Assembly: GCF_003940805.1 (NCBI RefSeq)
Contig: NZ_CP034328.1
Coordinates: 744,001 to 808,000 of the forward strand
From: Tabrizicola piscis
GTDB lineage: Bacteria; Pseudomonadota; Alphaproteobacteria; Rhodobacterales; Rhodobacteraceae
DNA length: 64,000 bases
Reading direction: 5' to 3'
Shown in pieces: positions 16,675-34,347 of this stretch; position 1 is the stretch's first letter; each line of letters opens with the position of its first letter. The notes under the pieces were generated by a model. That model did no database searches. It saw nothing but the letters and a program-made list of their open reading frames with translations, and had not been told where the DNA came from. A program made the translations under genes and the position numbers.

Positions 16675-17610
16675 CTAGGAGCGCGCGAGCAGCGCCTCGA
16701 TCTCCGCCCGCGCGGGCATGGCGGGCGCGGTTCCGGGTCGGGTGACGGAAATCCCCGCCGTCGCGCAGCCGAAGCGCACGGCGTCGACCACGTCGCGGCC
16801 TTCCGACAGCGCCACGGCAAAGCCGCCGTTGAAGGCGTCGCCAGCGCCAGTGGTTTCCACCACGGGTCCGGCGCTGATCACCGGCACATGTACCGACCGG
16901 CTCCGATCGCGATACAGCGCGCCATTCCCCCCAAGCGTGACAACCACCGCGCCCACGCCCTTGGCAAGCAGCGCATCGGCGGCGGCTTCCGCCTCGGCCA
17001 CATTGGTCACCGGAAGACCAGTCAAAGCCTCGGCTTCGGATTCGTTCGGCGTCACGAAATCGCACAACGCCAGCATGGCATCGTCCAGCGGTGCTGCCGG
17101 GGCCGGGTTCAGGATCGTCACGACACCTGCCGCCCGCGCAATCTCCAGCGCGCGCCGCGCGGCGGGGATCGGCTGTTCCAGTTGCGTCACGAAGACGGAC
17201 GCGCTTTCGATCAACGCGCGCTTTGCCTCCACATCCTCCACCGACACCCGACCTGCCGCACCGGGGGCCACGATGATCGCATTATTGCCCGTGGCCGCTT
17301 CGATGAAGATATAGGCCGCCCCAGTGTAGCTTTCGCCATCCTCGGTGACTTCGGGTACCACGCCCGCCCGGGCCCAGGTGGCGCGGGCAATATCGGCAAA
17401 GGCATCGCGGCCTAGCCGGGTGATGAAATGCACCTTGCCGCCATTCCCAGCGCTCGCCATCGCCGCAGCGACCGACTGGTTCGACCCCTTCCCCCCCGGC
17501 CCCAACACGAAGGAATTGCCCAGAATCGTCTCGCCCATCTTCGGCTGCCGCTCCGCCCGATAGGCGGTATCGGCCACGAAGATCCCAAGAATCACGATCG
17601 GTTTTGTCAT
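16675..17610 (-). CDS. Ribokinase-like PfkB sugar kinase
   Basis: The 311-residue protein has both PfkB signatures: GPGGKGSNQS near residue 38 and the ATP/anion-hole motif VVETTGAGDAFNGGFA near residue 250. NPAPAAPLDD, TPNESEAEALTG and VVTLGGNGA are typical of ribokinase. It would phosphorylate ribose or a similar furanose with ATP. It is the third gene of the unit ABC ATPase - RbsD/FucU - kinase, 15 bases after the RbsD/FucU gene, so it probably uses the sugar imported by the neighbouring ABC system. The actual sugar is not determined. Confidence 0.85.
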   Translation of the reverse strand: MTKPIVILGIFVADTAYRAERQPKMGETILGNSFVLGPGGKGSNQSVAAAMASAGNGGKVHFITRLGRDAFADIARATWARAGVVPEVTEDGESYTGAAYIFIEAATGNNAIIVAPGAAGRVSVEDVEAKRALIESASVFVTQLEQPIPAARRALEIARAAGVVTILNPAPAAPLDDAMLALCDFVTPNESEAEALTGLPVTNVAEAEAAADALLAKGVGAVVVTLGGNGALYRDRSRSVHVPVISAGPVVETTGAGDAFNGGFAVALSEGRDVVDAVRFGCATAGISVTRPGTAPAMPARAEIEALLARS

Positions 17611-17625
17611 CTCACGTCTTCCTTC

Positions 17626-18078
17626 TCAGGCGTCCGGCGGGATCACGCCCTTGCGGAACATGAAGCAGCCGTAGAACCGCCGTTCCCCGGTCTGGATCAC
17701 TGCATAGGCCTGCCGCGCCATGTCATAGAATGCAAACCGCTCGATGCTGACCATGGGCCGCGCGCGCCCCTCGGCCCGGTCGATCTCGGCCTGCACCTCG
17801 GCCTGCACCGCAGGCACCTCGGTCGGCGCGCCGACCACTTCCATCCGGCCCGCGAAATCGTCGACGAAAGTGTCAAGCGGCAGCACCGAAAGGATCGCCT
17901 GCACCGCTTCGGCACAGCTCAGGTTCTCCATCCGCAACAGCTTGCCCGTCACAGTGGCCCGCGCCACGGAATCGGATGGGAAATTGGTATCAGCCACGAT
18001 CAGCACATCGCCATGCCCCATGCCCCGCAGGCAGGCCAGCACTTCGGCATTCAGCCGGTTGTCGATTCCCTTGAGCAT
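17626..18078 (-). CDS. RbsD/FucU-family sugar mutarotase, copy 1
   Basis: The 150-residue protein matches RbsD/FucU: MLKGIDNRLNAEVLACLRGMGHGDVLIVADTNFP at the N-terminus with the catalytic His in MGHGD, and FYDMARQAYAVIQTGERRFYGCFMFRKGVI at the C-terminus, which is FucU-like rather than RbsD-like. The family interconverts sugar anomers after uptake. ATG 18078 matches its paralogue at 23349; a longer opening to 18108 is not needed. It lies between the ABC ATPase and the ribokinase, in the same unit. Confidence 0.88.
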   Translation of the reverse strand: MLKGIDNRLNAEVLACLRGMGHGDVLIVADTNFPSDSVARATVTGKLLRMENLSCAEAVQAILSVLPLDTFVDDFAGRMEVVGAPTEVPAVQAEVQAEIDRAEGRARPMVSIERFAFYDMARQAYAVIQTGERRFYGCFMFRKGVIPPDA

Positions 18079-18099
18079 CCCCGCTCCCCCTTCATTTTC

Positions 18100-18145
18100 T
18101 GTCCACAAATATCCCGGGGGTGCGGGGGCTGGCCCCCGCTCCGCG
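18100..18145 (+). repeat. Dispersed intergenic repeat, copy F (short)
   Basis: TCCACAAATATCCCGGGGG is followed by a perfect GCGGGGGC/GCCCCCGC hairpin. It lies inside an operon, between the ABC ATPase stop and the RbsD/FucU start, so it may tune expression between transporter and enzyme genes rather than stop transcription completely. Confidence 0.65.
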
Positions 18146-18150
18146 AGATG

Positions 18151-19218
18151 TCACGCAAGCCGCACGCCCGAGGATCTGTCGAACAGATGCACCTTTTCCG
18201 CATCGGGCGCAAAGGTCAGCGCGTCGCCCGGCCGGAACGCCACCCGGTCGCGGAACATCGCCACCACATCCCGACCGCCGCCGTCCTGCCCGAACCGCAG
18301 GACGACATGGGTCTCTGACCCGGTCGGCTCCACCACGGCCACGCTGCCGGCAATCCCGTCGCTGCCCACCGTCAGGTGCTCCGGCCGGATGCCATAGGTC
18401 ACCTCGCGCCCCTCGGCCAGTGCCGAACCTGCCGGCAGCGGCAGCCGTGCGCCGCCGTCAATCTCGACCACGCCGCGCCGGACGATGCCCGGCAGCATGT
18501 TCATCGCCGGACTGCCGATGAAGCCTGCGACAAAGGCATTGGCGGGCCGGTCATAAAGGTCAAGCGGCGCGCCGACCTGTTCGATCCGGCCGCCCTGCAT
18601 GACGACGATCTTGTCGGCCATGGTCATCGCTTCGATCTGGTCATGGGTGACATAGACCGTGGTGGTCTTCAGCCGGAGATGGAGTTCGCGAATCTCGGTG
18701 CGCATCTGGACGCGCAACTTGGCGTCCAGGTTTGACAGCGGTTCGTCGAACAGAAACACCTGCGGGTCGCGCACGATGGCGCGGCCCATGGCGACGCGCT
18801 GGCGTTGCCCACCCGACAGCGCACGAGGGTAACGGTCCAGATAGGGCGTCAGGCCAAGGATCCCTGCCGCGCGGGTCACCTTCTCGGCAATCACGGCCTT
18901 GTCCATTCCCCGCATCTTCAGGGCGAACCCCATGTTCGCGCCCACGGTCTTGTGCGGGTAAAGCGCATAGTTCTGGAACACCATGGCAATGTCGCGCTCG
19001 CTTGGCGGCAGGTTGTTCACCCGCCGGTCGCCAATCCGGATGTCGCCGCTGGAGATTTCCTCCAGCCCCGCGATCATCCGCAGCAGCGTGGACTTGCCAC
19101 AGCCCGACGGTCCGACAAGCACCACGAATTCACCATCCGCAATATCCAGATCAAGGCCGTGGACGACCTGTACCCCGCCATAGAACTTCTTCAGCTCGCG
19201 GATCGTGACTTCGGCCAT
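18151..19218 (-). CDS. Sugar ABC transporter ATP-binding protein (UgpC/MsmX-like)
   Basis: The 355-residue protein has Walker [13 protein letters not shown] signature LSGGQRQR, Walker [16 protein letters not shown] and switch [12 protein letters not shown], followed by the long C-terminal regulatory (TOBE/OB) domain of CUT1 sugar-transport ATPases. It should drive the permeases encoded divergently at 21288-23308. ATG 19218 follows a GGGAGGGGAAAGG Shine-Dalgarno sequence. Its promoter contains the island palindrome between -35 and -10. Confidence 0.92.
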
Positions 19219-19283
19219 TGGCCTTTCCCCTCCCTCAGACTTTGGCAAGGCTAGCGGCGACGCGCGGGCCTGTCCACCGGCTG

Positions 19284-19517: not shown

Positions 19518-21149
19518 GTGAAAGTAGGACTTTACAACGCGCTCATGGGCGCACAGATCAGCCGCCGCCGCATGTTGCAGGGCGCGACCGCGCTTTCGGC
19601 CATGGCCATGGTGCCTGCCAGCGTGAAAACCGCCCTTGCCGAGGCGCATGGCAATGTGCGTGCCGAAATCCTGAAGATTCCCGGCGTTGGCATGGGCTCG
19701 CCCACGGATGCCGATTGGCAGAAGGTCGGCGAGATGTGCCTTGCCGCCACCAAGGCAAGCGTCACCGAAGGCGAATTCGCCGGGGTCGAACTCACCTTCA
19801 TGGGCCTCAACAACCAGAACCTGCACAACTTCCTGTTCCGCGGTTTCCTCAAGCCGTGGGAGGCCTATACCGGCGCCAAGATCAACTGGATCGACCTCGC
19901 GCAAGCCGATTACAACAGCCGCCTGCAGCAGGCCATCGCCACCGGCACGGTTGACTTTGACATCCTCGAAATGGGCGCCCCCTTCGAAGGCGATACCGCC
20001 AGCAAGGGCCTTCTAGACGAAATGCCCGACTGGGTCTCGGCCCAGATCGATGAAGAGGACCTTGTCGGCTATCTCAAGCCACCTGTCGGCACCTGGGACG
20101 GCAAGAAGTACCGCGTCACCATCGACGGCGACTGCCACACCTTCGCCTATCGCAAGGACTACTTCGGTGAAGGCGCGATTGGCGGGGCCGAGGTTCCGAC
20201 CACATGGCAGGCCGTCAACGAAGTCTCCAAGGCCCTTGTCGGCCAGACCGATCCGCTGACCGGCCTGCCCGCGCATGGCTATCTTGATCCGCTGAAAGGC
20301 TGGGGCGGGTTCGGGATGTACTTCATCGCCAACCGTGCCACCGCTTACGTCAAGCACCCTGATGATCCGGCATGGCTGTTCGACCCCGACACGATGAAGC
20401 CGCGCGTCAACAACCCGGGCTGGGTGCAGGCGATCCAGGACGTGATGGACCTGATCGCCGCTGGCGCCTACCCCGCCGACCAGATCAACGCCGATCCCGG
20501 CACCACGGCCTTCAGCCAGTTCCTGGCCGGAACGGGCTCCATGCTGATGTGGTGGGGTGACGTGGGGTCGTCCGCGCGCACCTCCGACACCTCGGTCGTG
20601 GGCGATGTCGTGGGCTTCGGGATCAACCCCGGCTCTACCCGCCGCTACAACTCCGCCGCCGGCGCATGGGAGGAAACCGCAAACGAAGCGCCGCTCATGG
20701 CCTATATCGGCTGGGGCGTCTACGTCACCTCCCGCGTTTCGGCTGATGAGAAGAAGCGCAAGGCCGCCTGGTCCGCCGCTGCCCATCTGGGCGGCAAGGA
20801 CCTGTCGCTCTGGACCGCCGCTTACCCGTCGGGCTTCCAGCCCTACCGCAACTCTCACTTCGACTATGCGGAATGGGAAACCGCCGGCTACGACCGCGCC
20901 TATATCGAGGATTACCTCGGGTCGAACGCCGACAGCTACAACCACCCCAACGCCGCGATCGAACCGCGCATCCCCGGCATCTTCCAGTACTATTCGGTTG
21001 CCGAGGATGAACTGGCCAAGGGCTTTGCCGGCCAGTACGCATCGGCGCAGGAAACGGCAGATGCCATCGCCGCCGCCTGGGAGAAGATCACCGACCAGAT
21101 CGGCCGCGACAGCCAGATCGCGCTTTACAAAGCCTCGCTGGGGATGTGA
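19518..21149 (+). CDS. Sugar ABC transporter periplasmic binding protein (Tat signal)
   Basis: The 543-residue protein begins with a twin-arginine signal (SRRRMLQGATALSAMAMV, then an Ala-x-Ala cleavage region), so it is probably exported folded. The mature part has the family 1 solute-binding fold: WEAYTGAKINWIDLAQADYNSRLQQAIATG and EVPTTWQAVNEVSKAL are typical of CUT1 sugar-binding proteins. It is longer than the usual 400-440 residues. GTG 19518 follows AAAGGGAGG. Two permease genes follow; the ATPase is divergent. Confidence 0.88.
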   Translation: MKVGLYNALMGAQISRRRMLQGATALSAMAMVPASVKTALAEAHGNVRAEILKIPGVGMGSPTDADWQKVGEMCLAATKASVTEGEFAGVELTFMGLNNQNLHNFLFRGFLKPWEAYTGAKINWIDLAQADYNSRLQQAIATGTVDFDILEMGAPFEGDTASKGLLDEMPDWVSAQIDEEDLVGYLKPPVGTWDGKKYRVTIDGDCHTFAYRKDYFGEGAIGGAEVPTTWQAVNEVSKALVGQTDPLTGLPAHGYLDPLKGWGGFGMYFIANRATAYVKHPDDPAWLFDPDTMKPRVNNPGWVQAIQDVMDLIAAGAYPADQINADPGTTAFSQFLAGTGSMLMWWGDVGSSARTSDTSVVGDVVGFGINPGSTRRYNSAAGAWEETANEAPLMAYIGWGVYVTSRVSADEKKRKAAWSAAAHLGGKDLSLWTAAYPSGFQPYRNSHFDYAEWETAGYDRAYIEDYLGSNADSYNHPNAAIEPRIPGIFQYYSVAEDELAKGFAGQYASAQETADAIAAAWEKITDQIGRDSQIALYKASLGM

Positions 21150-21287: not shown

Positions 21288-22391
21288 TTGAGCAGCGGCG
21301 CAGCCCTTCACGTCGTCACCAGCGACACCATCACCGACAGCCGCAAACGGCTGGGCCATGCGATGATCTGGGGCTCGGCCGCCGTGCTGGGCCTTGTGGC
21401 GCTGGCGCAACTGGGCCAGACGCTGGGCTGGTGGGACGCGGGCTTCACCACCTGGCGGCCCACGCTTTACGCCTATTGCCTTTGGGCCACCGCATTGTGC
21501 TGGGCGCAGGTCATCCTGCGCGGCGAACAGGGCAAGCGCACCCTGTTTGTCCTGCCCGCCGCCCTGTTCGTCATTTCGCTGACCGTGTTCCCGCTTCTCT
21601 TCGGCCTGATCATCGCCTTTTCCAGCTGGAACCTTGCCAGCCCGGACGGCCGCCAGTTCAACGGCATAGCCAACCTTGTGCAGATGTGGAACGACCCGTT
21701 CTACTGGAACGCCATGACCAACATGGTCTGGTATACCCTTGCCATCGTTGTGGAATACGCCATCGCCTTCGGCCTCGCCCTCCTCCTCAACAGCCAGATC
21801 AGGGCGCGCAAGTTCTTCCGCGTCGCTTTCCTTTTGCCGCTGATGCTGTCCCCCGTCGCCGTCAGCTGGATGATCGGCAAATCGATGCTTGAGGCACGGT
21901 TCGGCCCCATCGCGCGGCTTGCCCGCTGGCTGGGCTGGGAAAACCCGTCCTTCTTCGGCTCGCCCGAGGTGGCCAAGATCACCATCATGCTGATGGATGC
22001 CTGGACCTTCATCCCCTTCATGATGATCATGCTGCTGGCCGGTCTGCAGGCGATCCCCAAGGAACTGACCGAGGCGTCCCGCGTCGACGGTGCAACCGGC
22101 TGGCGGTCGTTCTGGGAGGTGACATTTCCCCTGATGCTGCCCGTCAGCATCACGGCAATCCTGATCCGCATCATCTTCAAGCTGAAACTGGCCGACATCG
22201 TCATCAACGTCACCTCCGGCGGTCCGGGCGGTGCCACGGATACCGTCACCAGCTTCATCTTCCGCGAATACCGCGACCGGTCGAACGTCGGCTACGGCAC
22301 GATGCTGGCCATGGTCTACCTTGTGCTGATCGTGATCTTCATGACCGCGCTGATGAAACTCGCCGCCCGTTGGACAAGACCCAGAACATGA
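21288..22391 (+). CDS. Sugar ABC transporter permease 1 (MalF/UgpA-like)
   Basis: The protein has about eight hydrophobic segments and the EAA loop ELTEASRVDGATGWRSFWEVTFPLML that contacts the ATPase. It forms the membrane channel with permease 2, whose ATG overlaps its stop. The start is uncertain: TTG 21288 gives 367 residues; ATG 21363 gives 342 and neither has a strong Shine-Dalgarno sequence. Two extra N-terminal membrane segments precede the usual LFVLPAALFVISLTVFPLLFGL opening segment. Confidence 0.85.
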   Translation: MSSGAALHVVTSDTITDSRKRLGHAMIWGSAAVLGLVALAQLGQTLGWWDAGFTTWRPTLYAYCLWATALCWAQVILRGEQGKRTLFVLPAALFVISLTVFPLLFGLIIAFSSWNLASPDGRQFNGIANLVQMWNDPFYWNAMTNMVWYTLAIVVEYAIAFGLALLLNSQIRARKFFRVAFLLPLMLSPVAVSWMIGKSMLEARFGPIARLARWLGWENPSFFGSPEVAKITIMLMDAWTFIPFMMIMLLAGLQAIPKELTEASRVDGATGWRSFWEVTFPLMLPVSITAILIRIIFKLKLADIVINVTSGGPGGATDTVTSFIFREYRDRSNVGYGTMLAMVYLVLIVIFMTALMKLAARWTRPRT

Positions 22392-23308
22392 CCGAAACCG
22401 CGATCTTCAAGGATTCCGAGGCGGACCGCAGCTTTCGCGCCAAATGGTGGGTCAACCGCTTTGCCGTCTATGGCGTGCTGATCCTATGGGCGGTCATCTG
22501 CCTGTTCCCGATCTACTGGACGCTGACCACCAGCTTCAAGATGGCCCCGAACGTGATGCAGGGCAATCTGGTGCCATGGGTCGACTACAACCCGGCATGG
22601 TTGGGCTGGCGGTCGCTTGGCCTGTCGCCCGACACCATCGGCGCTGAATCGACCGTGCGGGAGGAGTTCATGAAACGCTTCCTGAACTCCGTCATCACCT
22701 CGCTGTCATCTTCGACCCTTGCCGTCATCCTCGGCTCACTGGCCGCCTATGGCCTGTCCCGCTTTACCTACAAGTTCGGCTTCATGAAGAATGACGATAT
22801 CTCGTTCTTCTTCCTCAGCCAGCTGATCCTGCCGCCCGTCGTGCTCGCCCTGCCGTTTCTGGTGCTGTACAAGGAACTGGCACTGCTCGACACGCGGATC
22901 GGCCTGATCCTGCTGTACACCCTTTCGGTCCTGCCCATCGTCATCTGGATCATGCGCGACCAGTTCGCCGGCATCCCGACCGAACTGGAAGAAGCGGCCA
23001 TGGTCGACGGCCTTGGCGTCTGGGGGGCGTTCTTCACCATCATCCTGCCCATCGCCCTGCCCGGCATGGTCGCGGCCTTCATCCTGTCGCTGGTGCTGAC
23101 GTGGAACGAATATTTCTTCGCCGCCCTCATCACCTCGACACATGCCAATACCCTGCCGGTGATGGTCGCCAGCCAGACGGGGTCACAGGGCATTTCCTGG
23201 TGGTCGATGGCCGCACTGTCCGCCGCCGCGATCCTGCCGCTGATCGTGATCGGCGTGGTGCTGGAACGCTTCATCATCAAGGGCATGGCCGCGGGTGCCG
23301 TCAAATGA
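22388..23308 (+). CDS. Sugar ABC transporter permease 2 (MalG/UgpE-like)
   Basis: The 306-residue protein has six predicted membrane segments, opening with VYGVLILWAVICLFPIYWTLTTSFK as in MalG-type permeases, and the EAA loop ELEEAAMVDGLGVWGAFFTIILPIALPG. It pairs with permease 1 through an ATGA overlap (ATG 22388). Together with the binding protein and the divergent ATPase this completes one importer. Confidence 0.9.
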   Translation: MTETAIFKDSEADRSFRAKWWVNRFAVYGVLILWAVICLFPIYWTLTTSFKMAPNVMQGNLVPWVDYNPAWLGWRSLGLSPDTIGAESTVREEFMKRFLNSVITSLSSSTLAVILGSLAAYGLSRFTYKFGFMKNDDISFFFLSQLILPPVVLALPFLVLYKELALLDTRIGLILLYTLSVLPIVIWIMRDQFAGIPTELEEAAMVDGLGVWGAFFTIILPIALPGMVAAFILSLVLTWNEYFFAALITSTHANTLPVMVASQTGSQGISWWSMAALSAAAILPLIVIGVVLERFIIKGMAAGAVK

Positions 23309-23348: not shown

Positions 23349-23804
23349 ATGCTGAAAGGCATCGACCAACGGTTAAGCGCGGAAATCGTCCATGTCCTCA
23401 TGCTGATGGGTCATGGCGATGATCTGGTGATCTGCGATGTGAACCACCCCGCCGCCACCATCGCCGCCGAAACCACCTACGGCCGGCTGGTCGACATGCC
23501 CGGCTGCGACATCCCCACCGCCGCCCGCGCGATCCTGACGCTGATGCCGCTCGACACTTTCGTCGACGCCCCGATCACCCGCATGCAGGTGGTCGGTGAC
23601 CCCACGGCCGACCGGCCGATCTTCGCCCGAATGCAAGCTGTCGCAGACAGCGCAGAGGGCCGCCCCGTCCCCATGCAATCCCTCGACCGCTTCGCGTTCT
23701 ACGAGGCCGCGAAACGCGCCTTCGCCATCATCCGCACGGCGGACTCGGGCCCCTACGGCTGTTTCATCCTGAAAAAAGGCGTGATCGACCTGCCCGAGCT
23801 TTAA
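23349..23804 (+). CDS. RbsD/FucU-family sugar mutarotase, copy 2
   Basis: The 151-residue protein is clearly paralogous to the product of 17626-18078: MLKGIDQRLSAEIVHVLMLMGHGD at the start, LMPLDTFVD in the middle and RFAFYEAAKRAFAIIRTADSGPYGCFILKKGVI at the end, with the same catalytic His. It ends the importer operon. A perfect hairpin stands just before its start. Its 3' end overlaps the convergent creatininase-family gene by four bases. Confidence 0.87.
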   Translation: MLKGIDQRLSAEIVHVLMLMGHGDDLVICDVNHPAATIAAETTYGRLVDMPGCDIPTAARAILTLMPLDTFVDAPITRMQVVGDPTADRPIFARMQAVADSAEGRPVPMQSLDRFAFYEAAKRAFAIIRTADSGPYGCFILKKGVIDLPEL

Positions 23805-24535
23805 GGCTCAAGCCCCAGCACCCCGGTCATATGCGTCAGCGCAATCCCCACGCCCTGCTCGCCTAACTCCGCCGTGGCCGCAGGCGCGGTCTCGGTATAC
23901 CAATGCCCGCCTTCGGCGACCCGCGCCATGTCAACCGTGTCGGGCGCCAGGGCCAGCATCAGCGACGTCTCCCCCACCCCGGCATGGTCAAAGGGGAAAT
24001 CGGCCCCTTTCGGGAACAGCGGATGGATCCTGATCCAGTTGAACGGGTCCGCCCCAGCCTCGTGCTGGGCATAGTAGTCCTGCATCCCCCGGTCGCCCCA
24101 CCAGCCCGGGCCGCGCGCCGCCTCAAGATACCGGAAGATCGCGTTGCGGGCGGCAAGGCGAAAGGTCAGATCGGTGGGCATCCCTTGGGAGAAGTTTTCG
24201 GTCTGGTGATGGATCACCCCATGCAGGTTGCGAAAGCCGGTCGTCAGCAACCCGGCAAACAGCGCCTCAGCCATGGGCAGGAAGGTGGCGGGCTCCAGAT
24301 GGAGCGTCCCCGCCCCCGGCCCCGCAACCGCATGGCTCGCCGCGCCATATGCGAAGGGCGGCAGCAGGATGATCCGGTCCCCAAGCCGCTTCAGCGTCTC
24401 GGTCACGATCAAAAGGTCCACCCCGGCGGGCAGGTGCTGCCCGTGGTATTCCATCACGCCAATCGGCAACACCACCGGAGTCCCCGCCGCAATGGCCTCG
24501 GCAATCTGGTGCGGGCGCATCCGGTCGAACTGCAT
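23801..24535 (-). CDS. Creatininase-family amidohydrolase
   Basis: The 244-residue protein has the creatininase-fold metal motifs: VLPIGVMEYHGQHLPAGVD (Glu and His-Leu-Pro ligands), a HHQTENFSQGMP segment, and GHWYTETAPA preceded by the DHAGVGETS block with metal-binding His and Glu. Family members open lactams or amide bonds (creatinine, MftE peptide, pyrimidine intermediates). In this sugar operon it might instead open a lactone or amide of a sugar derivative; that is speculation. It is coupled to the FGGY kinase by TGATG and ends the BtpA-M42-FGGY unit. Confidence 0.82.
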   Translation of the reverse strand: MQFDRMRPHQIAEAIAAGTPVVLPIGVMEYHGQHLPAGVDLLIVTETLKRLGDRIILLPPFAYGAASHAVAGPGAGTLHLEPATFLPMAEALFAGLLTTGFRNLHGVIHHQTENFSQGMPTDLTFRLAARNAIFRYLEAARGPGWWGDRGMQDYYAQHEAGADPFNWIRIHPLFPKGADFPFDHAGVGETSLMLALAPDTVDMARVAEGGHWYTETAPAATAELGEQGVGIALTHMTGVLGLEP

Positions 24536-26023: not shown

Positions 26024-27106
26024 TTATGGGCTGCGCGTCAGGGCAAGGTCGGGGGTGATGCCGTCCAGCATGCCATCAAGCAGCCGGGTCAGCCCGTCCA
26101 GATCGGCGGTATCCACCACCTCCAGCGCCGAATGCGAATAGCGCATGGGGAAGCCGACATCGAGACAGGCCACCCCCTCTTGCCCCATGAACTGGATATA
26201 GGACAGATCGGTCAGCGCCCCGGTATGGGCCGACCGCTGCAAGGGCAGCCCGCCCGCCTCCGCCGCCGCCTCGGCCAGCTTGACCAGCGCGGGATGCGGG
26301 ATCACCCCATTCAGCGTGCCGCGCCCGTGGAAGGAATACAGGCTGATGCCGGGGCCACCGCCCAGGGTCACCTCACCCCGTCCGGTCATGTCGGGCGTGT
26401 CGCAGGCCAGCAGCAAATCTATCTGCAGCGCGATGTCGGGCTGCAAAGCGGTTGCCGCAGGCAGAACCCCGCGAAGATTGTATTCCTCCTGCACCGACCA
26501 GACGAGGTGCAGCGTCGGCCCCGGCTTGCCCAACCGCGCCGCCGCCAGCGCCAGCAGCACGGCGCACCCTGCCCGGTCATCGACCGACGTCCCGGCGATC
26601 CGGTTGCCATGCAGCGGCAGAACCCGTGGCAGGTAGGTGACCGGAGTGCCGATCCTGACACCCGCCGCCAGCGCCTCATCCGCCGAGGAAAATCCCGCAT
26701 CAACGTAAAGGTCAGCATAGGGCAGGACCTTGTACTTCTCCTCCGGTCCCGTCGCATGATGCGACTTGTTGGCGATGACACCGGGAATGTCGCCCTTGTC
26801 CGTGCTCAGAACCACCGCCTGCGCGGGCAAAGCGCGTTCCGGCACGCCGCCAAGGCGTTCCAGCCGGATCAACCCCGAGGCTTCAACCTTGCGGACGATG
26901 AAGCCAAGCTGGTCCATATGGGTAAAGACCATCACCGAGGGCAGGGCCGGATCGCCCGGGATCGTGGTCATCAGATTGCCCAGCCGATCAGACCGATGCG
27001 GCAGGCCCAGCCGGTCAAGATGCGCGGCGATGGCCGTGGCCACACGCCCCTCATACCCGGACAGGCCCGGGATCAGCATCAACTCGGTCAAGAGATCGCG
27101 GATCAT
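26024..27106 (-). CDS. M42-family metallopeptidase homologue (SgcX/FrvX-like)
   Basis: The 360-residue protein has the M42 metal ligands: His-Asp in FTHMDQLGF, bridging Asp in SVDDRAG, Glu-Glu in SVQEEYN, Asp in LACDTP and His in RYSHS, so the binuclear site looks intact. M42 enzymes are tetrahedral aminopeptidases, but homologues such as SgcX and FrvX of E. coli sit in sugar operons with unknown roles. The ATG overlaps the stop of the BtpA gene (ATGA), as part of the BtpA-M42-FGGY-creatininase operon. Confidence 0.87.
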   Translation of the reverse strand: MIRDLLTELMLIPGLSGYEGRVATAIAAHLDRLGLPHRSDRLGNLMTTIPGDPALPSVMVFTHMDQLGFIVRKVEASGLIRLERLGGVPERALPAQAVVLSTDKGDIPGVIANKSHHATGPEEKYKVLPYADLYVDAGFSSADEALAAGVRIGTPVTYLPRVLPLHGNRIAGTSVDDRAGCAVLLALAAARLGKPGPTLHLVWSVQEEYNLRGVLPAATALQPDIALQIDLLLACDTPDMTGRGEVTLGGGPGISLYSFHGRGTLNGVIPHPALVKLAEAAAEAGGLPLQRSAHTGALTDLSYIQFMGQEGVACLDVGFPMRYSHSALEVVDTADLDGLTRLLDGMLDGITPDLALTRSP

Positions 27107-27915
27107 CTGCCCCCCCGCACCGCACGGACACGGTCCATGAAATCCTTGGCGCGCTCGGCATCAACGGCGGCCCAAGTGTCGCCCCCGTGCTTCAACGCGC
27201 TGCCAACGATGCAGCCATCGGCAATCCGCAGCACGTCAGCGACAGTGGCGTGCTTGACCCCGGTATTGGCCAGCACCGGCGTGGTGGGCAGGACACGCTT
27301 GACCGCCTCCAGATCCTCCATCCGGGCGGCTTCGCCGGTGATTGCACCGGACACGAGCACGGCATCCGGGATCGAAGAAAAGACAGCGCTGCGCGCCCGA
27401 TCCGGCAGGGGTCGCGGGTCAAGCGACCCCGCGAATTCCGCCGAGACGTTGTAGAGGGTGGCAACGTTCCCCGCCCCCAGCCGGCTGCCATAGCGCCGGG
27501 CCGCACCGGCATCGGGTGCCCAAAGGCCCATATCGCTGGCGTAGGTGCCGGTAAAAATCTCGCGCACGAAGGCAGCACCGGTGGCCGCAGCCAGCGCCAT
27601 GGTTGCCATCGGGTCCCACAGCACGTTGACCCCGAAGGGCACAGCAATCCGGTCGCGCAACCGGCCGATCACATAGGCCATCGTCGCGGTTGAGGCAGCG
27701 TCGACCTTCAACTCATAGGGCCGGTCATTCTCATTTCCGAACATCACCGCATCGACCCCGGCGGCCTGCAATGCCGCAAGATCAGCCTCTGCCCCGGCAA
27801 GGATCGCCTCGACCCCGCCTGCCCCGTCATGCAGCGGCGTGCCGGGCATCGCCCCCAGATGAACCATCGCGATGACGGGCTTCCCCTGCCCGAAAACCTG
27901 TTCGAAACGTGTCAT
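27103..27915 (-). CDS. BtpA/SgcQ-family TIM-barrel protein
   Basis: The 270-residue protein matches BtpA: VIAMVHLGAMPGTPLHDG near the start, AGVDAVMFGNENDRPY, PFGVNVLWDPMATMALAAATGAAFVREIFTG and PVLANTGVKHATVADVLRIADG. In cyanobacteria BtpA affects photosystem I assembly; in enterobacteria the homologue SgcQ lies beside SgcX in a sugar operon. No biochemical function is established to my knowledge. It is the first gene of a four-gene unit and sits beside operator 2. ATG 27915 is used; a longer opening to 27975 would run into the operator. Confidence 0.87.
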   Translation of the reverse strand: MTRFEQVFGQGKPVIAMVHLGAMPGTPLHDGAGGVEAILAGAEADLAALQAAGVDAVMFGNENDRPYELKVDAASTATMAYVIGRLRDRIAVPFGVNVLWDPMATMALAAATGAAFVREIFTGTYASDMGLWAPDAGAARRYGSRLGAGNVATLYNVSAEFAGSLDPRPLPDRARSAVFSSIPDAVLVSGAITGEAARMEDLEAVKRVLPTTPVLANTGVKHATVADVLRIADGCIVGSALKHGGDTWAAVDAERAKDFMDRVRAVRGGR

Positions 27916-28006: not shown

Positions 28007-29029
28007 ATGCAAGCAAGGCGGCAGTGGGATCGGCGCGGGGCCGGGGGACTTTCCTTCACCGAACTCGGCTTTGGCGCGGCGCCTTTGGGCAACCTGTTCA
28101 AGGCGATCAGCGAGGATGAAGCGCAGGCAGTCCTTGAGGCGGCTTGGGCCGCAGGCGTGCGCTATTTCGATACGGCACCTCTCTACGGCCTTGGCCTGTC
28201 CGAAACCCGGATCAACCACTTCCTGCGCGGAAAGCCGCGGGCGGAGTATGTGATCTCGACCAAGGTCGGGCGGCTGTTGTCGGCTGTGCCCCACGGAACC
28301 GGGGATGGCATCGGCAAGTGGATTGATGTGCCCAGCCGCCGCGAAACCTTTGACTACAGCCATGACGGCGTGCTGCGCAGCCTTGAGGCCAGTCTGGAGC
28401 GGTTGGGTCTGGACCGGGTCGATGTGCTTTACGTCCACGATCTGGACATCTTTACCCACGGGTCCGAGGCCGCCAAGGCCGCGCCGCTGGCCGAATTCAT
28501 GGCCGGTGGTTACCGGGCGCTGACCCGGTTGCGCGACGAAGGCGTGATCGCGGGCTTTGGCGCCGGTGTGAACGAATGGGAACCCTGCGACTGGCTGCTG
28601 GAGCGGGGCGAGTTCGACCTCTTCCTGCTGGCCGGGCGCTATACCCTGCTGGAACAGGGGGCGGCGGGCTTCATGGACCGCGCCCATGCCAAGGGGGTGG
28701 GGGTCGTGATCGGCGGGCCGTACAATTCCGGCATTCTGGCCACCGGTCCGAAACCCGGGGCGCATTACAACTATGCCCCGGCCCCAGAGGCCGTGCTTGA
28801 CCGCGCGGCCCGGCTTCAGACGCTGTGCGAAGCGCAGGGGGTGCGGCTGGTCGACGCGGCCTTCCAGTTTCCACTGCGGCATCCGGCGGTCGTCAGCGTC
28901 ATCCCCGGCGGGCAGGGATTGGCTGAGATGACCAGCAACATCAAGGCTTCCGCAGCCCGGATCCCCGAAGCCCTGTGGCAGGCCCTGTCAGCCGAAGGGT
29001 TGATCCCCGAAACCACCCCCGGTCGCTGA
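28007..29029 (+). CDS. Aldo/keto reductase (aldose 1-dehydrogenase-like)
   Basis: The 340-residue protein has the AKR barrel with catalytic tetrad elements FDTAPLYG (Asp, Tyr), ISTKVG (Lys) and LYVHDLD (His). The LGFGAAPLGNLF start and the long GKWIDVPSRRETFDYSHDGVLRSLEASLERLGLDRVD segment resemble the D-threo-aldose/L-fucose 1-dehydrogenase group, which oxidises free aldoses to lactones with NAD(P)+. GGAGGCAGGG precedes ATG 28007. It is transcribed alone, divergent from BtpA. Confidence 0.85.
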   Translation: MQARRQWDRRGAGGLSFTELGFGAAPLGNLFKAISEDEAQAVLEAAWAAGVRYFDTAPLYGLGLSETRINHFLRGKPRAEYVISTKVGRLLSAVPHGTGDGIGKWIDVPSRRETFDYSHDGVLRSLEASLERLGLDRVDVLYVHDLDIFTHGSEAAKAAPLAEFMAGGYRALTRLRDEGVIAGFGAGVNEWEPCDWLLERGEFDLFLLAGRYTLLEQGAAGFMDRAHAKGVGVVIGGPYNSGILATGPKPGAHYNYAPAPEAVLDRAARLQTLCEAQGVRLVDAAFQFPLRHPAVVSVIPGGQGLAEMTSNIKASAARIPEALWQALSAEGLIPETTPGR

Positions 29030-29158: not shown

Positions 29159-29197
29159 ACTGGGTTTACGTGTTGCGGGACAGCCCCCGCAGGGTCA

Positions 29198-30106
29198 TCA
29201 GGCCCCGGCAAGGGTGGCGCGAATCATGGCGGCGTCGATCGTCGGGCGCTGGTCCAATGGCAGGCTGACATGCAGACCTGCGGCGGCCTGACCAAAGGCG
29301 GCGGCAGCGACAAGGCTGGCACCGCCCGCCCATTCCGCCGCCAGCGCGCCGATGAAGGCATCCCCCGCGCCATGGGTGGAGACCACCTTGACCCGATTGG
29401 CAGACTGCAGGGCCAGCTGCCCCGCTTCGGCGATCACCAGCCCGTCGCCCCCCAAGGTCACGATCACCGCGCGCGGGCCCTGTTTGCCGAGGTCCTCTGC
29501 GGCCCGGGTCGCATCGAGGCCCGTCTCGGCACGGCCAAGGAGATCGGCCGCCTCGCCCCGGTTCACCACCAGAAGATCGGTCAGCGCCAGAAGGTCAGGG
29601 GCCACCGCGCGCGCGGGGGCCGCGTTCAGAATGACGCGGACGCCCGCCGCCCGCGCCTGCCGCGCGAGCGCGAGGTTCGCCGCCTCGGGGATTTCGCTTT
29701 GCAAAAGCAGCGCCGCGCAATCCTTGGGGAACAGCACGGCCTCGGGCCGAAACAGCAAGTTCGCGCCCGACACGATGACCGCCCCATAGGCCCCGTCAGG
29801 CAGCGAGATCGCCACAGACATGCCAGAGGGTCCGGGATGGGTCTGCACGGCAGACCGGCGTACCCCCGCCATGTCCAAAGCGCTGCGCAACAGCATCGCC
29901 GCGTCATCGGACCCGACCGCCCCGGCCATATGCACCTCGGCCCCGGCGCGGGCGGCGGCGGCGGCCTGATTGCCGCCCTTGCCGCCAAAGGCATAGCGGA
30001 CGGCGCTGCCCACCATCGTCTGGTCCGCCCGCGGCAAGCCGGGGGCGTCGACGATCACGTCATGATGCAGGGACCCTGCGCAAAGTAGAACGGGCTTCGG
30101 TCGCAT
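29198..30106 (-). CDS. PfkB-family carbohydrate kinase 2
   Basis: The 302-residue protein has the PfkB signatures FGGKGGNQAAAAARAG near residue 40 and STHGAGDAFIGALAAEW near residue 240, with NAAPAR and VVNRGEAADLLG between them. It is ribokinase-like but clearly distinct from the product of 16675-17610. It might phosphorylate a sugar or a 2-keto-3-deoxy acid made by the UxaA-type dehydratase; this is inference. ATG 30106 follows an in-frame GTG at 30109. It lies 161 bases downstream of the isomerase gene, so it may be in the gntR unit or have its own promoter. Confidence 0.82.
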   Translation of the reverse strand: MRPKPVLLCAGSLHHDVIVDAPGLPRADQTMVGSAVRYAFGGKGGNQAAAAARAGAEVHMAGAVGSDDAAMLLRSALDMAGVRRSAVQTHPGPSGMSVAISLPDGAYGAVIVSGANLLFRPEAVLFPKDCAALLLQSEIPEAANLALARQARAAGVRVILNAAPARAVAPDLLALTDLLVVNRGEAADLLGRAETGLDATRAAEDLGKQGPRAVIVTLGGDGLVIAEAGQLALQSANRVKVVSTHGAGDAFIGALAAEWAGGASLVAAAAFGQAAAGLHVSLPLDQRPTIDAAMIRATLAGA

Positions 30107-30267
30107 CACGGCATCGTCGGAACTGGTGAAGGGTGGGCAGGACAGAAAGGCACAGGACGAGTCATTTGTGGCGGGTCATTCAGCAGGGGCTGCGGGCGCG
30201 GTCATTGGCGGAATTGTAGACCATGGTATGCAACTGGCAAGACTCGAAAATGCAGGTCAACGCCGGT

Positions 30268-31230
30268 TCATGCACCAAACAGCGCGGCCATCACCAGACG
30301 CGTCGCCGCCGCCGCATCCTGACGCGCCTGTGCCGCCTCAAGCGCCGGATCATCCGCCAACCGTGCTGCCAGATCGACCAGCCGGTCGGTCAGGCGGATG
30401 TTGGTCCGCGCCTCCTCCACCGGATCAAGGCCGGACAGGTCGGGGAAGGTGTCAAAGTAGATCACCCCGGCATAGCCCGCGCGGGCCATGGCCACCAAAA
30501 GCTCCACCGTTTGCACGGGATGCACAGAACCGGCCATCAGGCCGTCGTCCCGCTTGCCGTAGCCATCGTTCAGGTGCAGCCCCAGAATGCGGGACCGGCG
30601 CGCGGCAAGCATCGCGGCCTTGGCCGGCATCTCGCCCGCGTAAAGCATATGGGCAAAGTCGAGCGTCACGCCGGTATTGGGGCGATCCACCTCCTCCAAT
30701 GCCAGAAGTGTGGTGGCCATGTCGGGCATCAGCGCATGGGCGCGGGGTTCGTTGGGTTTGTATTCGACGGCAATGTCGATGGCGGGGTTGTGGTCCGCAA
30801 CCTCGACCATCGCGGCGATGGTATCATCCCACATCCGGCCATAATCGGCCTGAAAGCTGTAGTCGAACCCGTCCTGCCCCATCCAGAGGGTCATCTGGCT
30901 GCCCCCCATCGCGCTGCAGGCATCGATCCCGCGCTTGGTCAGGTCGATGGCTGCCTGCCGGACGGCACGGTCGGGGTGGGTAAAGGCCCCCAGCTTGAAG
31001 CCGCTTTCCGTGTAATAGCGCATCGCCAGCCCGTTCAGCACAAGGCCCTGATCCGACAGCAACCCGGTCAGCGTCGCCGGGTCATGCGCGGCGAAATGGT
31101 CGGGATAGTTGAGGTCGGCGGCGGACAGCCCGCCCACCTGCCCCACGCCAAGGATCATCTCGGCCACCGAGCCGCCCCTGACCTTGAAGGCATTCAGCCG
31201 CGCGGCATAGCGGGGGCGATTGGGAATCAT
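30268..31230 (-). CDS. Sugar isomerase/epimerase, TIM barrel (rhamnose isomerase-like)
   Basis: The 320-residue protein belongs to the xylose isomerase-like TIM-barrel group. VEYKPNEPRAH and TLDFAHMLYAGE carry metal-binding Glu and Asp, and LGLHLNDGYGKRDDGLMAGSVHP contains His-Asn-Asp metal/substrate residues as in Pseudomonas-type L-rhamnose isomerase. It should interconvert an aldose and a ketose, or epimerise a ketose. Its ATG overlaps the gntR stop (ATGA), so regulator and enzyme are made together. Confidence 0.82.
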   Translation of the reverse strand: MIPNRPRYAARLNAFKVRGGSVAEMILGVGQVGGLSAADLNYPDHFAAHDPATLTGLLSDQGLVLNGLAMRYYTESGFKLGAFTHPDRAVRQAAIDLTKRGIDACSAMGGSQMTLWMGQDGFDYSFQADYGRMWDDTIAAMVEVADHNPAIDIAVEYKPNEPRAHALMPDMATTLLALEEVDRPNTGVTLDFAHMLYAGEMPAKAAMLAARRSRILGLHLNDGYGKRDDGLMAGSVHPVQTVELLVAMARAGYAGVIYFDTFPDLSGLDPVEEARTNIRLTDRLVDLAARLADDPALEAAQARQDAAAATRLVMAALFGA

Positions 31231-31979
31231 GCTGTCCCTCGGTCAGGATTGAACAACTCGGGCCGGTCGCGTTCCAAGGGTTCAAGATAGGTCAGGAGTT
31301 GCCGCAGATGCGCCTGTATGGCAGCGCGGGCCGCGTCGGGGTCACGCGCTTCAAGCGCCGTCAGGATCGCCTGATGTTCGGCCAGCGTGGCGGCAATCCG
31401 CCCCGGCACCGGCAGGATCAGCTGCCGCGCGCGGTTGACATGCAGCCAGGCGGTTTCGGCCACCTGTGACAGCTTGGGAAAGCCGGTGAATGACAACAGC
31501 AGCTCATGCATGGCGGCATCCATGGCGTAAAACCCCGGAATGTCCCCATCGGCAACCAAAGCCGCCTGCACAGTCAGATTGCGGCGCAGAAGCTGCAGCT
31601 GATCGTCCGTGATGCGGGCGGCCACGCGTTCGATGGCAGCGACCTCGATCGCCTCGCGCAGAAAGGCGCCCTCACGGATGTCCTCCATCGAAAAACGGGC
31701 CACGAAGGTGCCGGCCTGGGGGATCACATCGACCAGCCCCTCGGCCTGCAGGCGGGCCACTGCATCGGCGACCGGGCTGCGACTGACGCCAAGGGCCGCA
31801 CAGACCTCGGGCTTGCGCAGGATCTCTCCCGGGCGATAGGCAAGCGACAGGATCCCTTGCCGCAACGTCTGATAGACGCGCTGCCCAAGCGACCCCGAAA
31901 ACTCGGCCAAGGGCCGAAGCCGCTTTGACGGTGCGGGCGCTGAGGGCTCTTGTTTGGCGGCGGCGGCTGGTTGTAACAT
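31227..31979 (-). CDS. GntR-family (FadR/FCD) transcriptional regulator
   Basis: The 250-residue protein has a winged-helix DNA-binding domain (VYQTLRQGILSLAYRPGEILRKPEVCAALGVSRSPVADAVARLQAEGLVDVIPQAGTFVA split over residues 35-95) and a helical FCD effector domain with Arg/Asp/His-rich helices such as FYAMDAAMHELLL. Such proteins repress sugar-acid genes until an inducer binds. The palindrome CTAACATGTTAG begins two bases upstream of the ATG, so autoregulation is likely. No Shine-Dalgarno sequence precedes ATG 31979, which suggests a leaderless mRNA or a later start. Confidence 0.9.
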   Translation of the reverse strand: MLQPAAAAKQEPSAPAPSKRLRPLAEFSGSLGQRVYQTLRQGILSLAYRPGEILRKPEVCAALGVSRSPVADAVARLQAEGLVDVIPQAGTFVARFSMEDIREGAFLREAIEVAAIERVAARITDDQLQLLRRNLTVQAALVADGDIPGFYAMDAAMHELLLSFTGFPKLSQVAETAWLHVNRARQLILPVPGRIAATLAEHQAILTALEARDPDAARAAIQAHLRQLLTYLEPLERDRPELFNPDRGTA

Positions 31980-31980
31980 G

Positions 31981-31992
31981 CTAACATGTTAG
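31981..31992. promoter_or_regulatory. Palindromic operator 3 between gntR and the UxaA-type gene
   Basis: A perfect CTAACATGTTAG, identical to operator 1. An extra half site TAACATG (31974-31980) abuts it, extending into the gntR start codon. The whole divergent gap is 62 bases, so one bound regulator dimer would cover both gene starts. Confidence 0.78.
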
Positions 31993-32041
31993 GCGACTGC
32001 GCCGCCCTGTCAAGAATGGGGCCGTCAGGAAAGGGTTTGCA

Positions 32042-33553
32042 ATGGCTGATGGGGTAATCCGGCTGCACGGGTCCGACAATGTGGTGATCGCCCTTCAGGA
32101 CCTTGCGGCAGGTGCCGTGGTGGCGGCCGTAGCCGCGCCCTTGCCGGGCGCCGTCCCGCGCGGCCACAAGATCGCCGCCCGCGACATCGCCAAGGGGGAT
32201 GAGGTGATCCGCTACGGCCAGATCATCGGACAGGCCACCGCCGACATCCCGGCCGGTGCGCATATCCACAGCCACAACCTTGGCATGGGGCCCCACAGCA
32301 GCGACTATGCCATCGGCAGCGAATGCCGCCCCCTGCCGCCGCTGTCCCCCCGCAGCTTCATGGGCTACCACCGCCCTGATGGCACTGTGGGCACCCGCAA
32401 CTACCTTGGCATCCTGACGTCGGTGAACTGCTCCGGCTCCGTCGCCCGGTTCATCGCCGAGGCGGCCGAGAAAGACCCCGTGCTTGCCGCCATGCCCGGG
32501 ATCGACGGGATCGTGCCCATCGTCCACCAGACCGGCTGCGGGATGTCCGGCACGAATGAAGGCTACGCCACCCTAATGCGCACGCTGAAAGGCTATGCGC
32601 GCAACCCGAACTTCGGCGGCATCCTTCTCGTTGGCCTGGGGTGCGAGGTGATGCAGGTCCCCGACCTTGTCGGCCAGGGCCGCCTGCGCCCGGATGGCAA
32701 TTTCCGCTACATGACCATCCAGGGCGAAGGCGGCACCCGCGCTACCATCGACCGCGCGCTCGGCACCTTGCGCGAGATGGCCGAGGTCGCCGCCCGCACC
32801 CCCCGCGCGCCCGCCCCGGTGTCCAAACTGGTGGTCGGGCTGCAATGCGGCGGCTCGGACGGCTATAGCGGCATCACCGCCAACCCCGCCCTTGGCCATG
32901 CCTCGGACCTTCTGGTCCAGATGGGCGGCACCACGATCCTGTCCGAAACGCCCGAAATTTACGGGGCCGAACACCTCCTCACCCGCCGCGCCGTCAGCCG
33001 TGACGTGGGCGAGACGCTCCTTGAACGCATCCGCTGGTGGGAAGACTACACCGCCCGCAATGAGGGTGAGATGGACAACAACCCCTCCCCCGGCAACAAG
33101 CGCGGCGGGCTGACGACGATCCTTGAAAAGTCGCTCGGCGCGGTGGCCAAGGGCGGCACCGCCCCCCTCTCCGGCGTCTACAAATTCGCCGAACCGATCA
33201 CGACCCCCGGCTTCGTCTACATGGACAGCCCCGGCTATGATCCGTGCTCTGTCACCGGCCAGATCGCCAGTGGCGCCACCCTGATCGTGTTCACCACCGG
33301 GCGCGGGTCGGTCTCGGGCTACAAACCCTCCCCTTGCATCAAGCTGGCCACCAACTCGGAAATGTACGCCCGCATGAAGGAAGACATGGACATCAACTGC
33401 GGCGATATCCTCGATGGCGTCAGCATCGCGGCGAAGGGTGAGGAGATCCTCGACAAGATCATCGCCACCGCCTCCGGCCAGCAGACCCTGTCCGAGGAGT
33501 TGGGCTTTGGCGGCGCGGAGTTCGTGCCATGGCAGATCGGGGCAGTGATGTGA
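32042..33553 (+). CDS. UxaA-family altronate/galactarate dehydratase-like protein
   Basis: The 503-residue protein has an N-terminal SAF domain (about residues 1-90, with RGHKIAARDIAKGDEVIRYGQIIG) and a catalytic UxaA domain beginning FMGYHRPDGTVGTRNYLGI. HQTGCGMS, LVGLGCEV and LQCGGSDGYSGITANPALG are the Cys-rich and substrate motifs of the family, which removes water from hexonates or aldarates to give 2-keto-3-deoxy acids. Its length is that of complete UxaA. GGAAAGGG precedes ATG 32042. It is divergent from gntR with operator 3 between. Confidence 0.9.
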   Translation: MADGVIRLHGSDNVVIALQDLAAGAVVAAVAAPLPGAVPRGHKIAARDIAKGDEVIRYGQIIGQATADIPAGAHIHSHNLGMGPHSSDYAIGSECRPLPPLSPRSFMGYHRPDGTVGTRNYLGILTSVNCSGSVARFIAEAAEKDPVLAAMPGIDGIVPIVHQTGCGMSGTNEGYATLMRTLKGYARNPNFGGILLVGLGCEVMQVPDLVGQGRLRPDGNFRYMTIQGEGGTRATIDRALGTLREMAEVAARTPRAPAPVSKLVVGLQCGGSDGYSGITANPALGHASDLLVQMGGTTILSETPEIYGAEHLLTRRAVSRDVGETLLERIRWWEDYTARNEGEMDNNPSPGNKRGGLTTILEKSLGAVAKGGTAPLSGVYKFAEPITTPGFVYMDSPGYDPCSVTGQIASGATLIVFTTGRGSVSGYKPSPCIKLATNSEMYARMKEDMDINCGDILDGVSIAAKGEEILDKIIATASGQQTLSEELGFGGAEFVPWQIGAVM

Positions 33554-34347
33554 GACCTCCTTACCGCTGGCCCGACCCCGACCGCGACTACACGAACGGC
33601 GCCTTCATCCCCGGCGCTGCCGACTACCCGCCGCGCTGGCAGGCAAAGGCCGAAGCCTTCCGCGCGGCCCTCGGCCCCCGCGCCGAACTTGACCTGCCCT
33701 ATGGGCCCGCCCCCCGGCAGAAACTTGATCTCTTCCTGCCCGAAGGCCCGCCGCGCGGGGCCATGGTCTTTGTCCACGGCGGCTACTGGCACCTGTTCGA
33801 CAAATCCCATTGGTCACACCTCGCGGCAGGGGTACTGGCGCGCGGGTTTGCCGTCGCCATGCCCGGTTACACCCTCGCCCCCGAGGCGCGGATCAGCGCG
33901 ATGACGGCCGAGATTGCAAAAGCCTGCTGGTTTGTCGCCACCCGGATCGCGGGCCCGCTGGTGGTCACCGGCCATTCCGCCGGCGGCCACCTCGCCGCGC
34001 GGATGGCCTGCACCGACATCGCCCTGCCGCTGACGCGGGTTGTGCCGATCTCACCCCTGACCGAACTCGGCCCCCTGATGGCCACCACGATGAACGCCAA
34101 ACTCCGCCTAGATGAAGCAGAGGCCGCCAGCGAAAGCCCCGCCCGGCTTGGCCTGCGGCCCGAGGTGGCCGCTCATGTCTGGGTGGGTGCCGCCGAACGC
34201 CCTGCCTTCCTGTGGCAAGCCCGTACCTTGGCCGAGGAATGGGCCTGTCCGTGGACCGCCGACGCCGACCGCCACCACTTCGACGTGATCGATGCGTTGA
34301 CGGACCCCGCCTCCCTGCTTGTTGAAACGCTGCTTGGTCCGCTTTAG
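33550..34347 (+). CDS. Alpha/beta hydrolase, kynurenine formamidase-like
   Basis: The 265-residue protein has the oxyanion motif HGGYW, nucleophile elbow GHSAGGH, and late Asp/His residues (GAAERPAFLWQ, DRHHFDVID) of the alpha/beta hydrolase fold. HGGYW plus GHSAGGH is typical of kynurenine formamidase-like esterases. Its GTG start overlaps the UxaA-type gene stop (GTGA), and no tryptophan genes are near, so a sugar lactone or ester is a more likely substrate here. That assignment is inference. Confidence 0.82.
   Translation: MRPPYRWPDPDRDYTNGAFIPGAADYPPRWQAKAEAFRAALGPRAELDLPYGPAPRQKLDLFLPEGPPRGAMVFVHGGYWHLFDKSHWSHLAAGVLARGFAVAMPGYTLAPEARISAMTAEIAKACWFVATRIAGPLVVTGHSAGGHLAARMACTDIALPLTRVVPISPLTELGPLMATTMNAKLRLDEAEAASESPARLGLRPEVAAHVWVGAAERPAFLWQARTLAEEWACPWTADADRHHFDVIDALTDPASLLVETLLGPL

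Follow-up and report, generated by a model that had tools for sequence, protein, structure and literature searches.

A conserved BtpA–M42–FGGY module joined to an oxidative sugar module in Tabrizicola piscis

Results

The island and its two modules

We analyzed a 64,000-nucleotide stretch of the Tabrizicola piscis genome (the window; contig NZ_CP034328.1, positions 744,001 to 808,000), in which positions 16675–34347 hold an island of carbohydrate-related genes. The original prediction had seen here a possible undescribed pathway combining an SgcX/SgcQ-like M42–BtpA pair with ATP-binding cassette (ABC) import, three kinases, a creatininase-family protein and an oxidative branch, and every gene that it listed was found with an open frame. 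The island is real and conserved, and it joins two modules. The core module encodes a BtpA/SgcQ-family phosphate-binding barrel, an M42 metallohydrolase and an FGGY sugar kinase, and is a conserved unit that is undescribed so far as the literature was searched. The oxidative module centers on an aldo-keto reductase (AKR) and a UxaA/GarD-superfamily sugar-acid dehydratase.

The genes are organized in divergent units (Table 1). UgpC–FucU1–PfkB1, BtpA–M42–FGGY–creatininase and GntR–isomerase–PfkB2 are read on the minus strand, while binding protein–permease–permease–FucU2, the solitary AKR gene and UxaA–hydrolase are read on the plus strand. Within the core, BtpA and M42 overlap (27103–27106), M42 and FGGY are 10 bases apart and the creatininase-family gene begins on the last base of FGGY.

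Table 1. Genes of the island, with window coordinates and the matches on which the assignments are based.
Feature	Position	Strand	Basis
PfkB1, ribokinase-like sugar kinase	16675..17610	-	PF00294 207 bits; TIGR02152 289.1 bits vs cut-off 299.65
FucU1, FucU/RbsD family (mutarotase family)	17626..18078	-	PF05025 120.5 bits; L-fucose mutarotase NF011949 81.6/141 bits
UgpC/MalK-type ABC ATPase	18151..19218	-	NF008653 502.5 bits > cut-off 432
Sugar ABC substrate-binding protein	19518..21149	+	PF01547 43 bits; start moved inward by gene caller
Sugar ABC permease A	21288..22391	+	PF00528; start per gene caller
Sugar ABC permease B	22370..23308	+	PF00528
FucU2, second FucU/RbsD family	23349..23804	+	PF05025 117.6 bits; start per gene caller
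Creatininase-family hydrolase, optional last gene of BtpA–M42–FGGY operon	23801..24535	-	PF02633 109.8 bits
FGGY sugar kinase, xylulokinase-like, core module	24535..26013	-	PF00370/PF02782; TIGR01312; 3ifr
SgcX-like M42 metallohydrolase, core module	26024..27106	-	PF05343 227 bits
BtpA/SgcQ-family phosphate-binding barrel, core module	27103..27915	-	PF03437 240.9 bits; TIGR00259 243.6 bits
Aldo-keto reductase (AKR), aldose 1-dehydrogenase-like, oxidative module	28007..29029	+	PF00248 150.7 bits
PfkB2, ribokinase-like sugar kinase	29198..30109	-	PF00294 164.9 bits
Xylose/rhamnose-isomerase-like TIM barrel	30268..31230	-	PF01261 81 bits; nearest solved 3ktc 172.8 bits
GntR/FCD regulator	31227..31979	-	PF07729, PF00392
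UxaA/GarD-superfamily sugar-acid dehydratase, oxidative module	32042..33553	+	PF20629 335 bits
Alpha/beta hydrolase, possible lactonase substitute	33529..34347	+	NF058665 379.4 bits > cut-off 320

BtpA exceeded the cut-offs of both models of its family (153.4 bits for TIGR00259 and 30 for PF03437). The FGGY kinase, whose nearest solved structure is 3ifr (249.7 bits), stayed below the XylB equivalog cut-off (TIGR01312, 291.9 vs 380.25 bits), PfkB1 narrowly missed that of ribokinase, and the only solved relative of the binding protein was a weak one (4qrz, E 3.1e-5). As the original prediction had noted, no aldolase family was present among the Pfam matches of the island genes. The isomerase-like, FGGY and FucU-family genes are shared with the phosphorylative L-fucose pathway (FucI-FucK-FucA), but the FGGY protein reached just 96.3 of the 470.9 bits required for L-fuculokinase and no class II aldolase family was found among the island matches.

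Conservation and co-inheritance of the core

The gene-neighborhood analysis that the original prediction had called for bore out its expectation: in genomes of the same order, FGGY, M42 and BtpA occurred together in 28/28 close loci, and AKR in 26 of these, a conservation of gene order that places the island far beyond chance. Named close relatives of the window BtpA are mostly from Rhodobacteraceae, e.g., Tabrizicola.

We then counted genes in the best 80 of 565 confirmed loci, a set that contains BtpA by design and is weighted toward close relatives, and which overlaps with the loci from the order's genomes (L037 and L113 are on equally long contigs). Loci span only about 20 kb, and presence counts rest on identity thresholds of our choice. 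M42 was present in 79 and FGGY in 77 of the 80 loci; among the genes searched, the order BtpA–M42–FGGY was kept in 76, eight of which have a permease between BtpA and M42. In the 53 members with at least 20 kb, FGGY was found in 53, M42 in 52, AKR in 40, the isomerase in 31, GntR in 30, UxaA in 23 and the creatininase-family gene in 20. In 16 of the 80 loci, a 181-residue SIS protein (L044:6558-7103 and 15 relatives), near 6-phospho-3-hexuloisomerase (140.9 bits against a cut-off of 160), is encoded next to the FGGY gene.

To avoid this locus-selection bias, we searched 292 genomes of the order with each of BtpA, M42 and FGGY (calls at 71–100% identity, 61–100% identity and E≤1e-130, respectively). 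BtpA was detected in 29 genomes, M42 in 31 and FGGY in 35, and all 29 BtpA genomes carry both partners (Fisher p 5.5e-38 for co-occurrence, shared ancestry ignored). The remaining M42 matches were only 30–35% identical. Two genomes, G151 and G087, retain AKR, lactonase, M42 and FGGY in place and have no BtpA between AKR and M42; diverged BtpA homologs lie outside the cluster in G151 (52% identity) and in G087 (46% and 32%).

The oxidative module resembles published pathways

The five best solved relatives of AKR were L-galactose dehydrogenases, and by homology it would supply the aldose 1-dehydrogenase step of an L-fucose/D-arabinose pathway. Cysteines 130, 166, 201 and 269 of the dehydratase would form its iron site, their spacing of 36-35-68 comparing with 39-35-68 for the four conserved cysteines in the part of PMC6336799 available. 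That part describes an AKR with activity on D-arabinose, L-fucose and L-galactose that adjoins a D-arabinonate dehydratase in a cluster belonging to Route II of D-arabinose (Paraburkholderia mimosarum), a D-arabinonate dehydratase of the UxaA/GarD type showing 5.6% relative activity on L-fuconate, and SDR and FAH hydrolase steps serving L-fucose/L-rhamnose in Route III. The non-phosphorylative pathways covered there (P. mimosarum and Herbaspirillum huttiense) share with the island the AKR (COG0667) adjoining a UxaA/GarD dehydratase, and with the island's relatives the FAH and SDR proteins; BtpA, M42 and FGGY do not appear in that part of the source, and the island of the window contains no SDR, FAH or lactonase gene.

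Relatives of the island also carry an SDR gene, an FAH protein near 2,4-didehydro-3-deoxy-L-rhamnonate hydrolase (433.6 bits against a cut-off of 500) and, in 31/53 loci of at least 20 kb, an amidohydrolase lactonase, matched best in NCBIfam by the L-fucono-1,5-lactonase model (152 against 400 bits). In some (2/53 loci), UxaA is replaced by an enolase-type dehydratase, with Pfam match MR_MLE and a best NCBIfam score of 123 against 500 bits, for another dehydratase; given the MR_MLE match, we tentatively label it FucD. The two dehydratases occur in 32 and 2 of the 80 loci, and none of these loci, of only about 20 kb, has both. Elsewhere in the window genome, homologs of the relatives' SDR (66% and 60% identical) and FAH protein (68%) are encoded, candidates by homology for the 4-dehydrogenase and hydrolase steps.

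In the island, the lactonase step may fall to the alpha/beta hydrolase. Of the 34 dehydratase loci in the 80-locus set, 23 have the amidohydrolase, four the alpha/beta hydrolase and seven neither (some loci are cut). The alpha/beta hydrolase occurs in six of the 80 loci, four with the dehydratase and without the amidohydrolase; the exceptions are L149, with both hydrolases, and L176, with neither dehydratase nor amidohydrolase. Among the loci of 20 kb or more, all 25 with a dehydratase also have the GntR/FCD regulator and AKR. Judged by these homologies, the oxidative half is ordinary and of a published kind.

The core is separable from the oxidative module

The original prediction had placed an oxidative and an isomerase–kinase route side by side. 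Both branches are indeed present in the conserved island, but they are separable modules and not one pathway. In 13/53 loci of at least 20 kb the core occurs without AKR, in all 13 with M42 and FGGY. A second sample of 394 genomes of another family, searched for BtpA at E≤1e-60, gave matches in 84. We kept 60 of the 62 matches with at least 68% identity (G987 and a contig-end fragment in G706 were left out), with 22 matches at 42–55% identity lying outside this set; as the gene caller had missed genes in some loci, counts were redone by tblastn. M42 was present in 56 of the 60 loci (missing from L255, L258, L274 and the contig-end locus L286) and FGGY in 54.

In this set, 29 loci have the importer type of the window (architecture I) and 18 an importer with a RhaS/LsrB-like binding protein (architecture III). 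Among solved structures, the binding protein of this type (for example L170:14484-15482, from the 80-locus set) is nearest to 5bra, named as ribose-bound (323.6 bits). The core was found in 18/18 architecture-III loci, together with DhaK and DhaL in 17, the remaining one being cut by a contig end. AKR was found in none of the 18, and no UxaA, enolase-type dehydratase or lactonase appeared among their gene calls.

A third setting (architecture II) is an SDR–FGGYb–HAD set. On Labrenzia, Shinella, Salipiger, Sulfitobacter, Rhizobium and Thermus plasmids, BtpA has no M42 beside it and is accompanied by an SDR, a regulator, a sugar ABC importer and a different FGGY. The listings for the first four also include a HAD phosphatase, which those for the Rhizobium (L291) and Thermus stretches do not. 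The clusters of those four genera share with the island a BtpA (35–73% identical), an FGGY-family kinase and a sugar ABC importer, and differ in having another FGGY (33% identical to that of the window in Labrenzia) and SDR plus, mostly, HAD in place of AKR and M42. The locus L235 combines the M42–FGGY set with the SDR–FGGYb–HAD set and a single BtpA gene, its genome giving one match at E≤1e-60. A single BtpA can thus apparently serve the two kinase sets, suggesting that they share a substrate once it is phosphorylated. In the BtpA tree, whose root we chose, L235 and the Labrenzia/Shinella-type architecture-II loci L066, L067, L255 and L258 nest among M42-bearing architecture III (node supports 0.60 to 0.94), with the Salipiger, Rhizobium, Thermus and Sulfitobacter proteins outside.

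Some further settings of BtpA were observed. In L234, BtpA–M42–FGGY lies behind another ribose-type importer, near a gene for a 633-residue protein that resembles a bifunctional aldolase/dehydrogenase. A BtpA about 30% identical marks another Rhodobacterales cluster (L071–L080), most of whose ten loci contain phosphotriesterase-family, GATase1_like, TenA-family and PfkB kinase genes and a sugar ABC importer, again placing BtpA in the neighborhood of a sugar kinase and a protein of metallohydrolase type. On a Sulfitobacter plasmid, a tryptophan-halogenase-family gene (L290:2375-3871) lies near the BtpA cluster between two alpha-glucosidase/alpha-galactosidase genes.

Features of BtpA and M42 and their link to E. 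coli sgc

The AlphaFold2 model of BtpA (pLDDT 94.8) predicts a phosphate-binding barrel, and its structural neighbors are solved phosphate-binding barrels. The two best Foldseek matches were ribulose-phosphate 3-epimerase and phosphoribosyl anthranilate isomerase, and the closest folds also include an HPS/PHI enzyme. A single-sequence search of solved structures gave no clear relative (best E 0.019), and a profile search of these matched tryptophan synthase alpha-type chains, but only at their phosphate-binding end (E 1.8e-5). In a BtpA family search, 6966 of 7998 candidates were within E≤0.001. The invariant polar residues are H19, N61, N97, R118, R141, R168 and K242.

In line with the SgcX/SgcQ-like label of the original prediction, the window BtpA is 47% identical to SgcQ and the M42 protein 37% to the adjacent M42 protein in an annotated E. 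coli sgc record, where the M42 gene, though not called sgcX, occupies the sgcX place of the order sgcXBCQAER (PMC5797941). Both systems thus combine an SgcX-type M42 and an SgcQ-type BtpA with sugar uptake genes. They differ in that the E. coli record has phosphotransferase system (PTS) genes, a ribulose-phosphate epimerase-like gene near sgcQ and a regulator, whereas the island has ABC import, FGGY, an isomerase-like protein and two PfkB kinases; neither PTS nor ribulose-phosphate epimerase families were found among the island genes scanned.

In alignment with the aminopeptidase MJ0555, the window M42 retains HxD, DDR, EE, D and H, which we take to be the metal ligands, and is for this reason probably an active metallohydrolase. 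A GRGTLNG motif was present in 125/125 cluster M42 proteins longer than 320 residues; the same position reads GRGTLAG in the E. coli sgc M42 and only GRG in MJ0555.

According to the available part of a 2026 study (PMC13343008), sgc mutants of E. coli show no growth defect, 190 Biolog carbon sources included, sgc is induced on nitrogen-containing substrates, coinciding with hypoxanthine accumulation, and its substrate and function are left open. We take these induction data as a lead to nitrogen-linked or ribose-like substrates, no more.

Genes flanking the island

To the left (14329–16543) lie an ABC ATPase gene (15746–16543; Pfam ABC_tran) and two further genes; the three resemble PstB, PhoU and PhoB. 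To the right (34494–38694), a second ABC importer (two permeases, ATPase and binding protein) adjoins the island, an arrangement also seen in, for example, the close relatives L033 and L099. Neither flank belongs to the island.

Discussion

We favor, with a probability of about 0.55, a two-module supercluster in which BtpA acts on the sugar phosphorylated by the FGGY kinase, most likely as a lyase. In the oxidative module, FucU, by its family role, would equilibrate the sugar, AKR would oxidize an aldose of L-galacto configuration, whether L-fucose, D-arabinose or L-galactose, to the lactone, a lactonase would open it and the UxaA-type dehydratase would yield a 2-keto-3-deoxy acid, the breakdown of which could be finished by the SDR and FAH hydrolase encoded elsewhere in the genome. 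In the core, FGGY would phosphorylate the imported (isomerized) sugar, standing in for the E. coli PTS; BtpA would split the phosphorylated sugar into two fragments, one retaining the phosphate and one resembling dihydroxyacetone, the latter to be re-phosphorylated by DhaKL where its genes are present; and M42, a two-metal hydrolase by family, would remove an amide- or ester-type group. A lyase step after phosphorylation is preferred because of DhaKL and the company that BtpA keeps in fold comparisons. The suggestion of the original prediction that BtpA might supply the missing aldolase step is possible: the fold is compatible with it, but agrees equally with several phosphosugar chemistries, non-aldolases included.

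Several observations weigh against this proposal. The structural matches of BtpA are tied within one Z unit, so that lyase, epimerase and transferase fit equally. Several Schiff-base aldolases carry their lysine on strand 6, and BtpA has no conserved lysine on that strand, which makes this aldolase type unlikely for it. DhaKL was detected in 0/29 architecture-I loci in the tblastn recount and is missing from the hybrid L235; of the eight architecture-III loci in the 80-locus set, seven have it and L170 does not, though its contig continues. FGGY occurs without this M42 or BtpA in 4/292 genomes. Conversely, no FGGY is shown for L065 (BtpA 46%) or listed for a Sinorhizobium plasmid with a 48% identical BtpA (L292, incomplete according to PLSDB), and in L274 both M42 and FGGY of the window type are absent. 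Many loci lack the hexuloisomerase-like gene, and the same holds for FucU and for each of the two PfkB kinases; the window genome has no close relative of the lactonase (best match 28%).

BtpA could instead be a sugar-phosphate epimerase or isomerase, converting the pentulose or hexulose phosphate made by FGGY into an isomer for the pentose phosphate pathway. Its top two Foldseek matches are of this type and a ribulose-phosphate epimerase-like gene lies near sgcQ, but that very gene means that sgc already has an epimerase-like gene of its own, and the DhaK and DhaL genes of architecture III would not be needed by an epimerase. We regard this alternative as rather unlikely, a lyase being more likely than an epimerase. 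Less probable again is that the whole island is a known kind of L-fucose/D-arabinose pathway to which M42, BtpA and FGGY are accessory. The constant company of AKR and GntR with the dehydratase and the presence of FGGY in 40/40 AKR loci (BtpA being there by construction) would agree with it, while the cores that lack AKR, and the whole of architecture III with its missing oxidative genes, argue against it.

We consider it quite improbable that BtpA is a non-enzyme helper, such as a PTS chaperone or a membrane-complex biogenesis factor, accompanied by an ordinary M42 aminopeptidase. Some source database names of BtpA say so, the available part of PMC13343008 mentions "PTS chaperone-like features" for SgcQ, and an NCBIfam model names a BtpA photosystem I biogenesis protein, for which the window protein scored 159 against 400 bits. 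However, no PTS family was found in the window genes scanned or listed in the annotated alphaproteobacterial plasmid clusters (PTS was not looked for among unlabeled genes at other loci), the core follows two unrelated ABC importers, the invariant polar residues of BtpA fit an active site, and the extended motif of the cluster M42 proteins sets them apart from MJ0555.

A lyase acting on the FGGY product thus remains our preferred reading. It could tentatively be extended, at clearly less than even odds, to the view that BtpA/SgcQ represents an unrecognized class of phosphosugar C–C lyases, and that the core is an undescribed catabolic pathway, mobile between importers and dehydrogenase sets, whose sugar is unusual and perhaps nitrogen-linked or ribose-like, with sgc as its PTS-coupled form. 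The statement of the original prediction that the gene combination matches no nameable pathway stands for the kinase, M42 and BtpA part, for which the literature searched gave no published pathway, but not for the oxidative branch, which resembles Routes II and III as described in the available part of PMC6336799.

With a soluble kinase here, as opposed to the PTS of E. coli, assays of kinase and binding proteins give access to the substrate, and the kinase product can then be offered to BtpA, which opens a way into the roles of SgcX and SgcQ. Since sequence searches give BtpA no clear relative of solved structure, a first activity for it would help to annotate a large family.

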